From: Microcaldota archaeon | Lineage (GTDB): Archaea; Micrarchaeota; Micrarchaeia; Micrarchaeales; Micrarchaeaceae | Assembly: GCA_021787495.1 (NCBI GenBank) | Contig: JAJYLX010000003.1 | Coordinates: 1-64,000, forward strand | Reading direction: 5' to 3' | DNA: 64,000 bases | In this document: positions 1,280 to 56,726 of the stretch, in pieces | Layout of the letters: each line of letters begins with the position of its first letter | Position numbering within the stretch: position 1 is the first letter of the stretch | Translations under genes and position numbers: made by a program | The notes under the pieces: model-generated | Told to the model about the DNA's origin: nothing | Database searches by the model: none | The model's input: only the letters and a program-made list of their open reading frames with translations

Positions 1280-4116
1280 GTCAGGCTTTAGTAACGGAGT
1301 GCTCACAGGTCGCGTGAGCTCCCTGCTTACACACCCATCCTATCGAAGTCGTCTATTGCGACCGCCCTAATGCCTCGTTTCGGGTGCAGCTTCGTCCTTA
1401 GATGCTTTCAGGACTTATCCTCAAGGCGCGTGGCTACCCGGCAGTGCGTTCACAACCGGTACACTAGCGGCGCCGATCCTTCGTTCCTCTCGTATTAAAA
1501 GGATCTTACCCTCTGGCATTCACACTCCCAGTAGATACTACCGTACTGTCTCGCGACGTACTGAACTCAGCTCGTGTATCGTTTTAATGGACGAGCAGTC
1601 CAACCCTTGGTGGCTTGTGCACCACCAGGATACGATAAGCCCATATCGATGTATCAATCCGCCAGGTCGATGCGAACTCTCACCGGCGACGAATCGGTTA
1701 CCTCTAGAGTAACTTGTTTAACAGCTTGGGGCCCCATCAAAAAAGCCTCCAACGTTCATTAAGCCCGCGTTTCCGCTCTGCGTCCCTCGCTCTTCGGGAC
1801 ACAGTCAGCCCTGCATTTGCCTTTATGCTTACCGGCGGGTTCCCAACCCGCCTAAGCAGAGCGTTGGTTACTTTCGTTTCCTTATCGAAAGCAACCGTCC
1901 AGTCTAACTATCCACCTGCTGCTGTCCTCTTCCGAGTAAGCTGCGGATTGAACCAGGAGTGGTGTTACATTGTCGCTCCCCGGCTCCCGAAGGGGCCGGA
2001 TCGACGCTCCCACTTACGCTATGCGTGGAACAATACGCAACAACAACAGGCTATAGTCAAGTTTCATAGAGTCTTCGTTTCCCACTGGGAGATCGTGGCA
2101 TATTCACCACGCAGTGAGTTCACCGGACCCAAGGTTGGGACAGTGGGACAGTCGTTACGCCATTCATGCAAGTCATCTATTAAATGACGAGGTATTACGC
2201 TACCTCAAGAGAGTCAGAGTTACTCCCGCTCTTTGCCAGCGCTTCTTTCCCTTGTAAAGGACGTTCACATACTGGCGGTGAGCAGGCGTCACCCGCTGTA
2301 CTAAGCCTTTCGGCTTTGCGGCGAGTTGTGTTTTAGATAAACAGTCGCTGTCCCCTGGTAAGTGACATCTGCGCATACCGTGCGCAGACATGGCTTGTCG
2401 AAAACTTACGCCACCATTTTGCCGATTTCCCTAACCTTGGTTAACTCCGTCACACCTTGGCCTTTTCAGCCAGCAGCACTTGTACTAGTTCTAGGTACGG
2501 TGCAATGCGGTCGTTGCAGGTTCCTTTTTCACTGTCTCAGGAAATCAGTCCAACAGTTCATTTAGCCGCTTCTCCTCATAACGAGACTCCGCGGCCCTTT
2601 GCACTTTCTTGCGGACCTATCCCCAAGCGTCAGAAATCTGCCTTTTGTTGCCAAACCTACGCATTGCGGGCATGGATATTAACATGCTTCCCTTTCGTGG
2701 CATGGTGATTGGCCTGCCACTTAGGATCGCCTAACTCTCCGCTGACGAGCGTCGCGAAGAAACCCGTGTGCTTTCGGTGTATGGGATTCTCACCCATATT
2801 TGATGTTACTAACACCAGGATGTTCCCTACGACATGGTCCACGCTTGCTCTCGCAGGCGCTTCGTGCCATGCCGAATGCCCTCTTACCAATGCTTATCGC
2901 ATTCCAAGGTCTCGGCACCTAGTTTAGCCCCGTATATTTTCGGAAGGAAACGCCTCAATCGGTACGCTATTACGCGTTTTTTGAAGGATGGCTGCTTCTA
3001 AGCCTACCTCCCGACTGTCTATGGCGTCACCCGCCTTCGTCACACTCAACTAGGATTTGGGGGCCTTAACCTTGGTCTCCGTCTTTGCGGTCTCGCAGCG
3101 CTAGCTTACCCAACGCTGCCGACTCCATGGGTCTACGCAGCGCATGCATTCGGAGTTTGATAAGGTGGCGATGTCTTTCGACACCTCTCCACCTAGTCGG
3201 TCGCTCTACCGCATGCGCAAGCTCGCCATGAGCTATCCTAAAGATACTTCAGAGGGGACCCGCTATTGCCGCGTTCGAGTGGTATATCGCCGCTACCCGT
3301 GACTCACCCAACAGGACATGCCATGACAGGAGGCGGGCCTCCACCAGGCGTTAGCCTAGCTTCGCCCTGGTCACGCGTAGATCACAGCGGCTTCGGGTCG
3401 TAAAGGAGTGACTCGACGCATTTTCATACGCCATGCCTTGCAAAGCTACGCATTCTCGCTTTCGCTACGCGTTTCCGCTCGCCACTCCAATACACTCCCT
3501 GGCTCTTGCTTCAAGAAGAATGACAGGACACTGGTCCATGCATGTCGCTGTTTCCTTTCGGAACTTCGCTTCCACGCACTTCGTCCCTTTCATGCCCTGC
3601 CTTCATGTAACCACCTAGTTTCAGATCTTTTCAATCCCACGCGTGTGGGTGCTTTTCAGCTTTCGCTCACGCTACTTGTTCGCTATCGGTCTGCAGCCAA
3701 TATTTAGGGTTGGGGTTTAATGCCCCCGTGTTCGCACTGGATACTCAACCAGCGCTACTCTTCGCAGCTACCTCCATCGCACTTAACCTACGAGGCTGTC
3801 ACTCTCTTTGGCCGTTCTTTCCAGAACGTTCGGCTCATGCTTTGGAAAGCGTTGCTGCACCACATCTCCCACGCTTTTGCAAGCAGGGATTCGGTTCGCC
3901 CTGTGTGGGTTTCATTCGCATTACTCGCCACATCGCTTTCGCTTTCTTTTCCTGCAGGTACTAAGATATTTCAGTTCCCTGCGTGCGCTTGTCTCACGAC
4001 ATCATTCGGCAATCCCAGGTTCAACGCCCGACTTGCGGCTACCCTGGGCTTATCGCAGCTTGCCACGGCCTTCGTCGCTACTGCAGCCAAGCCATCCCCT
4101 AGGTGGCTTTAAATTT
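1280..4116 (-). rRNA. 23S ribosomal RNA
   Basis: The minus strand contains recognisable 23S landmarks in order: the 5' region with GCAAGCTGCGATAAGCC, the TGAATGGCGTAACGACTG helix-71 region, the peptidyl transferase loop, the A-loop, the GTCGCGAGACAG segment and the sarcin-ricin loop ACGAGAGGAAC. The length of about 2.84 kb fits an intron-free archaeal gene. The ends are inferred from the flanking processing stem and may be off by a few bases. Conserved loops carry several unusual bases (see findings). No 16S or 5S gene adjoins, so the operon is split, as in several archaeal lineages. Confidence 0.95.
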
Positions 4117-24142: not shown

Positions 24143-24499
24143 TTACTTCGGCGTGACCTCCAGCACGTACTTCGAGACGACATCAGCCACGATGTCGAGC
24201 ACCTTCCTGACGTTCGCTATCGTGTTCGTGCCGGTGCAGATCATCTTGCCGTTCTTGAAGAGTATTATCGTGGCGCTGGGGCTGTTGACCTTGTATATGG
24301 CACCCGGGAACTGCTCGGGCTCGTAGTCGACGCCCTTGACGTTCTTCGACAGTGCGTAGAGGTCCACGACCGCGTGCAGCTCCGCCTTGACGACGATGCA
24401 GTTGATGCGTATGTTCGGCTTCAGCGTGTCGAAGTTAATCTTGGCTGGGGCCTTTGCTGCAGACGCGGATGCATTCCCCTTTGGAGTTTTTTGCGGCAT
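24143..24499 (-). CDS. TATA-binding-protein homologue with a single repeat
   Basis: This 118-residue protein contains one TBP repeat: KPNIRINCIVVKAELHAVVDL, GVDYEPEQFPGAIYKVN, ATIILFKNGKMICTGTNT and a final helix. Archaeal TBP has two such repeats in about 180-190 residues. Here there is only an Ala/Lys-rich head of about 24 residues and one repeat, and the neighbouring genes leave no room for another. It could act as a homodimer that mimics the two-repeat saddle, or be a paralogue beside a full TBP elsewhere. A TATA-like box GTTTATCG lies about 25 bases upstream. Confidence 0.88.
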   Translation of the reverse strand: MPQKTPKGNASASAAKAPAKINFDTLKPNIRINCIVVKAELHAVVDLYALSKNVKGVDYEPEQFPGAIYKVNSPSATIILFKNGKMICTGTNTIANVRKVLDIVADVVSKYVLEVTPK

Positions 24500-24583
24500 G
24501 TCATATCCCGTTGTCGATAAACCTTATTACTGTTTGGATACCAATGTTTATAAAGGGTATTACAAGGCTTATAGGTGACTTTC

Positions 24584-25684
24584 ATGGAGGCTGACGTCGG
24601 GATAGTTGGCGGGGGGGTGGTAGGGCTCTCGCTCGCCAGGGAACTTGGCGAACGTGGCATTTCTGCGACGGTCTATGAGGCGAGACAGCAAATAGGCGAG
24701 GGCGCTGACAGGGCATCTGGCATCCTTTCGAAGAGCGGCCTGGAGAAGCTGGGCCTCGATTACGGGAAGAGCGTAGTCAACGAGCTTTACGGCGCCCACT
24801 TCCATGCGGGGGGGAGGACGTTCACCGTCAGGGCGGGGGAGACGAAGGCGTACGTGCTTGACCGCATAAGTCTTGCGCAGTCCTGCGCAAGGAGGGCGAT
24901 TGAGGAAGGCGCGGAGATAAGGCTGGGAAAGAAGCTTGATGCCGCAGGCATACGGGCGCTATCCGCGGAGCACAGGGTCGTCGTCGGTGCGGACGGCGCC
25001 GTGTCGAACGTGGCCAGCACGTTCGGGTTCCCACAGGCGGCGAGGATGGTCCTGACTTACAAGGCGGTGTACGAAGGGGTGGATGTGGCTGACAGCGGCA
25101 TGGTCGGCCTGTATTTCGACAAGGCGATAACGCGCGGCTTCTTCGGCTGGACCGCGCCTTATTCCGGCAGCAAGCTCGAGGTGGCGGTCGGGATAGAGGA
25201 CAGGGCCAAGGCGAACTCCAAGAGGGCGTTCGATGCGTTCATAGAAAGGGCCGCAGGCGGCGAAATCGGTGGGGGGGCGGCCAGGAAGGAGGATGCCGGC
25301 CTGATACCTCTCGCCGCACGGGCGCGGACCGTGAAGGGCAGCGTGCTGCTCGTGGGCGACGCTGCCGGGCAGGTCAAGGCCACGACGGGAGGGGGCATAA
25401 TCTTCGGCGTGGGCTGCGCCAAGGTCGCCGCAGGGGCCATAGCAGAGCACCTGGCCAAGGGCAGGGGGCTTGGAAGGTACGAAGTGGCATGGAGGAGGAA
25501 GTATGGGACAGACCTCGCGCTGCACAGGCTGCTCCACGGGTACTACTCGAGCGTGGGCCAGACGGGGCTCAGCATGGCATTCGCCTTCATGAAGTCGCTC
25601 GGAGCTGAGCGGCTGCTGGGCTCCTTTGGCGACATGGACAGCCCGAGCAGGACGCTGAAGGGCGTCGTGTTCAGGCGCGCCTGA
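24584..25684 (+). CDS. Geranylgeranyl reductase family flavoprotein
   Basis: This 366-residue FAD-dependent protein has the dinucleotide motif VGIVGGGVVGLSLARELGE, a GADGAVSNV segment, the late FAD motif SVLLVGDAAGQVKATTGGGIIFGVGCA and a C-terminal helical domain. The last motif is typical of digeranylgeranylglycerophospholipid reductases, which saturate archaeal lipid chains. GGTGA five bases before the ATG and a TATA-like GTTTATAAAG fix the start. It diverges from the TBP-like gene. Confidence 0.88.
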   Translation: MEADVGIVGGGVVGLSLARELGERGISATVYEARQQIGEGADRASGILSKSGLEKLGLDYGKSVVNELYGAHFHAGGRTFTVRAGETKAYVLDRISLAQSCARRAIEEGAEIRLGKKLDAAGIRALSAEHRVVVGADGAVSNVASTFGFPQAARMVLTYKAVYEGVDVADSGMVGLYFDKAITRGFFGWTAPYSGSKLEVAVGIEDRAKANSKRAFDAFIERAAGGEIGGGAARKEDAGLIPLAARARTVKGSVLLVGDAAGQVKATTGGGIIFGVGCAKVAAGAIAEHLAKGRGLGRYEVAWRRKYGTDLALHRLLHGYYSSVGQTGLSMAFAFMKSLGAERLLGSFGDMDSPSRTLKGVVFRRA

Positions 25685-38409: not shown

Positions 38410-39519
38410 ATGGCTTCGAACAAGAAGGCAAAGAATGTTCCGCACCAAGGCGCGGAGCGCGCCCGCGCCGCTTCAGGCACGAGCAGGATAGTCGTCGATG
38501 GCAACCACAGGCTCAACGTAATCAGCGATGCCGACAAGAAGAAGGGGAGGCAGAGGGCAGCCCCGGAGGCAGAGGGAGCAAAGACGGGCCAGCAGCCTTC
38601 AGGAAGGGACGTCAGCGATAAGAACTGCCCTAGCTGCGGAAGCACGGACATAATCTTCGACACGGAGAAGGGAGAGCGTGTCTGCAACAACTGTGGCCTT
38701 ATAATTGAGGAGAACACGACAGACAGCGGTCCGGAGTGGAGGGCGTTCGATCCAGAGCAGAAGGCCGCGAGGGCCAGAACAGGCGCTCCCGTGCAGTTCA
38801 GGAAGCTCAACAGGGGCCTCGTCACCGAGATAGACCTCTACAACAAGGATATAAGGGGCGTGCGCATACCCTCGAAGAGGCAGGCACAGCTTTATAGGAT
38901 GAGGAAATGGCACAAGCGCGCGAGCATCGCGAGCTCGAGCGAGCGCAACTATCTCATAGCCCTGCCTGAACTGAACAGGGTTTCGAGCTACCTCGGATTG
39001 CCGGACAACATACGCGAGACCGCCGCGCTCCTCTACAGGAAGTGCGTCCAGAACAACCTGATAAGGGGAAGGCCCATCGAGATAATCGTGCAGGCTGCCA
39101 TTTATGCCGCCTGCAGGGAGTCAGGCATGCCAAGGACGCTCGATGAGATAGCGAGCATATCCGGCGTTGCGAAGAAGGATGTGGGGCGCGCGTACAGGAT
39201 CATAGCGCATGAGCTGGACCTCAAGATACCGCTCACCGACCCGATCGCATACGTGCCGAGGTACGTCAATGCGCTCAAGCTGAGCGGCGAGGCGCAGGAG
39301 AAGGCCATAGAGCTGCTCAAAATTGCCATGAAGAAAGGGCTGCTCTCTGGAAGGAGCCCGACTGGCGTCAGCGCAGCCGCGGTGTACATCGCGGGCGCGC
39401 TGGCCGGCGAGCGCAGGACCCAGAAGGAGGTGGCGGACGTTGCCGGGGTGACGGAGGTCACCATCAGGAACAGGTACAGGGAGCTGAAGGAGCAACTCAA
39501 CCTGGACGTCAACCTGTGA
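38410..39519 (+). CDS. Transcription factor TFB (TFIIB homologue)
   Basis: This 369-residue protein has a zinc ribbon CPSCGSTDIIFD...CNNCGLIIEE (about residues 73-98) followed by two cyclin-fold repeats. The B-reader region GPEWRAFDPEQ and the linker ARTGAPVQF are conserved. TFB joins TBP at the promoter and recruits RNA polymerase. It carries about 70 extra residues before the ribbon, rich in Lys, Ala and Gly, and is longer than most archaeal TFBs (about 300). GGTG lies before the ATG. It pairs functionally with the one-repeat TBP at 24143. Confidence 0.95.
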   Translation: MASNKKAKNVPHQGAERARAASGTSRIVVDGNHRLNVISDADKKKGRQRAAPEAEGAKTGQQPSGRDVSDKNCPSCGSTDIIFDTEKGERVCNNCGLIIEENTTDSGPEWRAFDPEQKAARARTGAPVQFRKLNRGLVTEIDLYNKDIRGVRIPSKRQAQLYRMRKWHKRASIASSSERNYLIALPELNRVSSYLGLPDNIRETAALLYRKCVQNNLIRGRPIEIIVQAAIYAACRESGMPRTLDEIASISGVAKKDVGRAYRIIAHELDLKIPLTDPIAYVPRYVNALKLSGEAQEKAIELLKIAMKKGLLSGRSPTGVSAAAVYIAGALAGERRTQKEVADVAGVTEVTIRNRYRELKEQLNLDVNL

Positions 39520-56614: not shown

Positions 56615-56726
56615 TGGGCCCGGAGAGATTTGGACTCTCGACATCCGGCTTTCTTCTCTTGACAAAACTCCTACTTGAGAAGTTCGCTATAAGACCGGCG
56701 CTCTAACCAGGCTGAGCTACGAGCCC
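56615..56726 (-). tRNA. tRNA-Ile (anticodon UAU) with an intron
   Basis: A tRNA with a GGGCTCG / CGGGCCC acceptor stem, D-arm GCTCAGCCTGGTTAGAGC, anticodon stem CCGGT / GCCGG and T-loop GTCCAAATC. The loop CTTATA|A places the anticodon as TAT, reading AUA. A 37-base intron interrupts the loop after position 37. It can form a CTTCTC / GAGAAG hairpin, as expected for a bulge-helix-bulge substrate of the tRNA endonuclease. Most archaea use CAU with agmatidine for AUA, so UAU is rare. Confidence 0.88.
56651..56687 (-). other. Intron of tRNA-Ile
   Basis: These 37 bases lie between anticodon-loop positions 37 and 38. The arms CTTCTC and GAGAAG enclose an 18-base loop, leaving short bulges next to the exons. 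The boundaries were chosen so that the exons give a standard 7-base anticodon loop. Confidence 0.75.

Follow-up and report, generated by a model that had tools for sequence, protein, structure and literature searches.

Single-repeat TATA-binding proteins in Micrarchaeota and their possible pairing as a saddle

The TATA-binding protein (TBP) encoded in the 64,000-nucleotide stretch of DNA analyzed here, which we refer to as the window, consists of a single repeat, a state found clade-wide in Micrarchaeota and not the product of a damaged gene. In archaea and eukaryotes, TBP is regarded as a covalent two-lobe saddle derived from a duplicated single-lobe ancestor. The reading that we favor, with moderate confidence, is that 2 paralogous half-size proteins act as general TBPs by pairing non-covalently into a saddle, and that the half is the ancestral form in Micrarchaeota, in which two-repeat forms arose again by duplication. 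Micrarchaeota with separate lobes, which include a member held in co-culture, make the proposed single-lobe stage directly testable using living proteins. The lineages that have apparently re-fused the halves would repeat, as natural replicates, the event from which TBP arose, one of them possibly in mid-process, and the half-size TBPs would test how a symmetric TBP gains directionality from TFB and BRE alone.

A single-repeat gene and its paralogue in one genome

The gene is located at positions 24143 to 24499 on the reverse strand, starts with ATG and encodes a protein of 118 amino acids, in which a short low-complexity head precedes the sole TBP repeat (24167 to 24412, reverse strand). A Pfam search of this ORF matched PF00352 once, at residues 30 to 111 and profile positions 2 to 85 of 85 (E-value 1.3e-19), with a score of 70 bits compared with the curated cut-off of 22.9, in agreement with a previous sequence-only reading of the gene as one complete repeat with a short head. 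TBPs were the only matches when the window protein was searched against PDB sequences, and both repeats of the Sulfolobus acidocaldarius TBP aligned in turn to it. The protein contains a single lobe, not the 2 tandem lobes in one chain of TBP. Both neighbors are ordinary genes, encoding a cytidine deaminase (PF00383) downstream and a divergent FAD oxidoreductase upstream. It had been claimed that no second repeat fits between these neighbors, and none was identified when the roughly 3 kb surrounding the gene were scanned with the profile in all six frames; a frameshift or reading error hiding a second repeat at this locus was therefore excluded.

A six-frame search of the whole source genome, an assembly of 10 contigs totaling 852 kb with a completeness of 86.5%, yielded exactly 2 TBP matches, each of which was single-repeat. 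The sequence-only reading had allowed for a full-length TBP elsewhere in the genome, but no two-repeat TBP was found in this 86.5% complete assembly, only a second half. The second match was located on another contig (C6:58723-58971), in an ORF of 116 amino acids (L001:1438-1788), and had a profile score of 87 bits, compared with 70 bits for the window protein. We refer to the window gene as the A-type half and to the paralogue on the other contig as the B-type half. It had also been argued that a single-repeat protein would have to dimerize to make the saddle, or have another role. Homodimerization is not the sole route to a saddle, since B is available as a partner and an A/B heterodimer is therefore as possible as a homodimer. 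Only 2 single-repeat TBPs were likewise found in 4 relatives with single-contig genomes (G010, G011, G026, and G032). In the complete chromosome (NZ_CP060530.1) of the relative Ca. Micrarchaeum sp. A_DKE, which is co-cultured with a host belonging to the Thermoplasmatales (PMC8975820), there were only 2 TBPs, both of which were single-repeat.

Predicted fold, contact residues, and promoters

The AF2 models of the window protein and of the B-type protein of A_DKE, which were built with the related sequences gathered in this analysis, had mean pLDDT values of 86 and 88, respectively, with values mostly above 90 in the repeat blocks. In Foldseek comparisons, both halves superposed on one half of the TBP crystal structures, mostly at 0.8 to 1.3 Å over 77 to 88 residues, and in most matches the model of the window protein was within 1.0 to 1.3 Å of half of a solved TBP. 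The window protein is predicted to adopt the TBP lobe fold. The canonical TBP of archaea and eukaryotes (PF00352; PDB 1mp9, 2z8u, 1pcz, 1ais, and 1cdw) has the same lobe fold, TATA-contacting Phe pair and EPEQFPG stirrup, and is likewise partnered by TFB with BRE and TATA promoters, but it is a covalent pseudo-dimer, whereas the lobes in Micrarchaeota are separate polypeptides, here in the form of 2 paralogues. One TBP-type lobe per polypeptide is also found in the nucleic-acid binding TBP-like domain of the bacterial RNase HIII (PMC8131849, PMC7289017). That lobe is part of an RNase H enzyme and not a transcription factor, whereas the window protein is a lobe alone, TBP being the only family above the cut-off in the 118-amino acid ORF.

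The stirrup YEPEQFPG, the 2 Phe residues and the S1 Asn were essentially invariant among about 150 distinct halves, the stirrup motif being present in 3 of 3 A-type sequences from the genus of the window and in nearly all halves. The 2 stirrup glutamates, which are the contacts of the C lobe to TFB/TFIIB according to Ravarani et al. (PMC7221094), are retained in the window protein. Among the DNA contacts, the kinking Phe pair and the Thr are also retained; the S1 Asn is present in the B-type and most A-type proteins, whereas Cys replaces it in the A-type proteins of all 3 species of the window's genus, and an A homodimer is therefore unlikely as the main TBP there. The residue preceding the S1 Asn was mostly Gln in the A-type proteins (27 of 37) and Glu in the B-type and other halves (91 of 116). 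In canonical TBPs, this residue was Gln in 8 of 8 C lobes and Glu in 5 of 8 N lobes. The parallel suggests that A and B may have C-like and N-like roles, respectively, in a heterodimer.

A single TFB gene was identified in the genome, at positions 38410 to 39519 on the forward strand of the window. The encoded TFB contained the N-terminal extension that had been noted previously, of about 70 amino acids, followed by a zinc ribbon (residues 73 to 113) and 2 cyclin repeats that matched the Pyrococcus TFB, and is otherwise canonical. The extension may be common to the relatives, where the open frames were 338 to 403 amino acids long. Two genomes from the sister family, G037 and G044, had 5 and 4 TFIIB-repeat matches, respectively, and one half-size TBP each, which suggests that they contain additional TFB paralogues.

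A palindromic TATA-like box, TTTATAAA, was read directly at positions 24547 to 24554, in the stretch that separates the TBP gene from the divergent oxidoreductase gene. The ATG at 24584 is 37 bases away, a spacing typical of the motif in the relatives, and the box is a candidate promoter element. For motif discovery, 165 to 182 upstream regions were taken per genome from A_DKE, which has A and B, G039, which has only B, and G215, which has a two-repeat TBP; the search was seeded with a TATA consensus but not with the upstream AA. All 3 genomes yielded the same motif, a BRE containing AA and, downstream of it, an 8-bp T/A box in which both half-sites were informative. The log-likelihood gain was 195 to 241, compared with at most 77 in shuffled sequences, in which only the base composition was preserved; in A_DKE, the positional peak was only slightly higher than in these shuffles. 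The remark in the sequence-only reading about ordinary TATA-like promoters was thereby supported, both by TATA-like boxes in the window and by the BRE-TATA motif in the relatives. The normal BRE and the full 8-bp TATA box favor a two-lobed dimeric saddle, for which a box of full length is needed.

We also considered whether the TATA box is more palindromic in organisms with half-size TBPs, but the dyad asymmetry was 0.14 to 0.19 compared with 0.14 in the two-repeat relative. Since these values are about equal or slightly larger, symmetry fails to separate organisms with half-size TBPs from those with two-repeat TBPs.

Distribution and phylogeny of the halves

The reduction to a single repeat had been presented as a feature of one protein, but it is not a one-off event, being common to the whole order and to many other families of Micrarchaeota. 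In the family of the window (f1), 65 of 85 genomes contained exactly 2 TBP matches according to a hand count from the table, and the inspected matches were single-repeat ORFs at separate loci, including those in single-contig genomes. One TBP match was identified in 41 of the 79 genomes in the sister family (f2), so that roughly half of this family contained the B-type only, as exemplified by G039 (a single contig of 771,545 bases) and G037 (97% completeness). Across the class, one or more single-repeat ORFs of about 90 to 180 amino acids were also found in families f8 to f11, f13 to f15, f17, f19, f21, f22, f24, and f25, while two-repeat TBPs of about 185 to 265 amino acids were found in families f3 to f7, f12, f16, f18, f20, f23, and f26. 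The Diapherotrites mostly contained two-repeat TBPs, with at least 2 single-repeat exceptions among the records so named.

The only intact two-repeat TBP seen in the order was a protein of 185 amino acids (L093) encoded on an 8.4-kb contig, G012:C43, in a genome that also contained the A and B halves. Its lobes grouped with the N and C lobes of non-DPANN archaea, the GC content was 0.41 compared with 0.43 to 0.44, and it was set aside as a probable contaminating contig or recent transfer.

Phylogenies of the lobes were inferred with iqtree from 88 columns and had low backbone supports; a second tree excluded 4 odd two-repeat proteins (L118, L179, L230, and L234). The lobes from Micrarchaeota and Diapherotrites were placed apart from those of Sulfolobus, Methanocaldococcus, Pyrococcus, the haloarchaea, and human (SH-aLRT 99.8), and both the N and C lobes of the two-repeat TBPs in Micrarchaeota fell among the halves. 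A topology with every N lobe in one clade and every C lobe in another was rejected (AU test, p = 0.009 and 0.005), as was one in which only the lobes from Micrarchaeota were constrained to the outgroup N and C lobes (p = 0.033 and 0.02), and on these alignments the two-repeat TBPs of Micrarchaeota would not be N- and C-lobe orthologs of the canonical TBPs. A separation of all halves from the two-repeat lobes was borderline (p = 0.051), and a single re-duplication was not rejected (p = 0.37). Within a given protein, the N lobe was 56% to 79% identical to the C lobe in Micrarchaeota, with one protein from family f12 at 50%, compared with 39% to 62% in the proteins grouped as Diapherotrites and 28% to 54% in the other archaea and human.

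In an rpoB tree rooted with Diapherotrites, which had a weak backbone and in which G241 (f22) was ignored because of its unreliable rpoB sequence, the lineages with half-size TBPs were basal within Micrarchaeota and those with two-repeat TBPs were found in 4 separate derived groups. The TBP state required 6 parsimony steps on this tree, compared with a mean of 20.5 for shuffled labels. The half-size TBP looks ancestral within Micrarchaeota, with the two-repeat form as derived, and the half was probably duplicated again several times within the group. The suggestion in the sequence-only reading that the single-repeat state is ancestral thus gains support from the lobe and rpoB trees for Micrarchaeota; that support does not extend to the time before the universal duplication, for which placements of the halves beside the N lobes, beside the C lobes, or outside both had equal likelihood. 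It is improbable, in our opinion, that Micrarchaeota never fused TBP, such that the half descended straight from a pre-duplication homodimeric TBP, with a stem possibly shared with Diapherotrites, and every two-repeat TBP in these phyla represents a later and independent fusion.

Two other histories would lead from a canonical TBP to the halves. The two-repeat TBPs of Micrarchaeota might be canonical proteins whose lobes were homogenized by gene conversion, in which case no re-duplication took place and the halves arose by repeated lobe losses. Gene conversion can make the N and C lobes highly identical, and the alignment of the lobes is short, but we find this history doubtful in view of the rejected tree constraints on canonical lobe orthology and the about 7 lobe losses that are needed on the rpoB tree by our count, compared with about 4 gains. 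The canonical TBP might instead have broken in two, with A corresponding to the old C lobe and B to the old N lobe, as the Gln and Glu residues preceding the S1 Asn would mirror. However, the split-gene constraint was weakly disfavored (AU test, p = 0.044 and 0.059), and other families contain halves that resemble B without any A-type protein, which makes such a split unlikely.

Proposed pairing of the halves

According to the reading that we favor, each half would represent one TBP lobe with the DNA-bending Phe pair and the TFB-binding stirrup, and 2 halves would pair across the S1 strands to form the usual saddle on the 8-bp TATA box. TFB would dock on one stirrup of the saddle and the upstream BRE would set the direction, the directionality of archaeal transcription being dependent on TFB and BRE (PMC7289017). 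Genomes with the B-type only would form the saddle from 2 copies of B. In the family of the window, where A usually co-occurs with B, we take the A/B heterodimer to be the commonest form, and B homodimers may also be formed; the heterodimer is our best guess from the co-occurrence and one residue pattern. The halves would serve as general TBPs, and the two-repeat TBPs of other Micrarchaeota would have arisen anew by tandem duplication of a half.

It is possible, though less probable, that B alone is the general TBP and acts as a homodimer, while A is a specialized paralogue, involved in promoter choice, regulation or dominant interference, that is diverging in the genus of the window. The B-type is nearly universal in the order whereas the A-type is absent from many f2 genomes, and the A-type proteins in the genus of the window have lost the S1 Asn and have the lower profile score. 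On the other hand, almost every f1 genome of sufficient completeness has kept the A-type, in which the stirrup, the Phe pair and the Thr are unaltered, suggestive of a constant role. That each half is instead a monomer on half of the TATA box, with TFB providing the remaining promoter recognition, seems very unlikely to us: stable binding of TBP to DNA requires TFB in many archaea (PMC7289017), but the motif spanned all 8 bp of the box and each of its half-sites was informative, just as in the relative with a two-repeat TBP. Haloarchaea also have multiple paralogous TBPs per genome, possibly in different factor combinations (PMC7289017), but the haloarchaeal TBPs retrieved for comparison were complete two-repeat proteins, unlike the halves in Micrarchaeota.

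Single-lobe archaeal TBPs are mentioned in one sentence in the Methods of Ravarani et al. 2020 (PMC7221094), which cites Brindefalk et al. 2013, and they are very probably the same kind of protein as in the window. That sentence gives no taxonomic range, A/B pair, absence of a full TBP, re-duplication, or promoters. In a survey of DPANN, TBP was counted as conserved and its size was not remarked on (PMC8407392). Within the literature covered by our search, nothing was found on the range, the paralogues, the absence of the full protein, or re-duplication. The existence of single-lobe archaeal TBPs was thus already known, while their distribution, the pair of paralogues and the re-duplication appear to be new.

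Two arrangements of single-repeat genes were also noted. At a contig end in the f2 genome G059 (L020, 1486-1896, reverse strand), the B-type repeat follows, in frame, a linker and the tail of another repeat identical to it, possibly a fresh tandem fusion yielding a two-repeat TBP. Since the terminal repeat is exact over 99 nucleotides, a typical k-mer length, an assembly artifact is also possible. At L187, 2 single-repeat TBP genes (1459-1788 and 2737-3063) are located on the same strand about 950 bases apart, a possible precursor arrangement for a fusion. Elsewhere in the window, an Rfam match identified a tRNA at positions 56615 to 56726 that was missed by ARAGORN and that, being 112 bases long, probably bears an intron.
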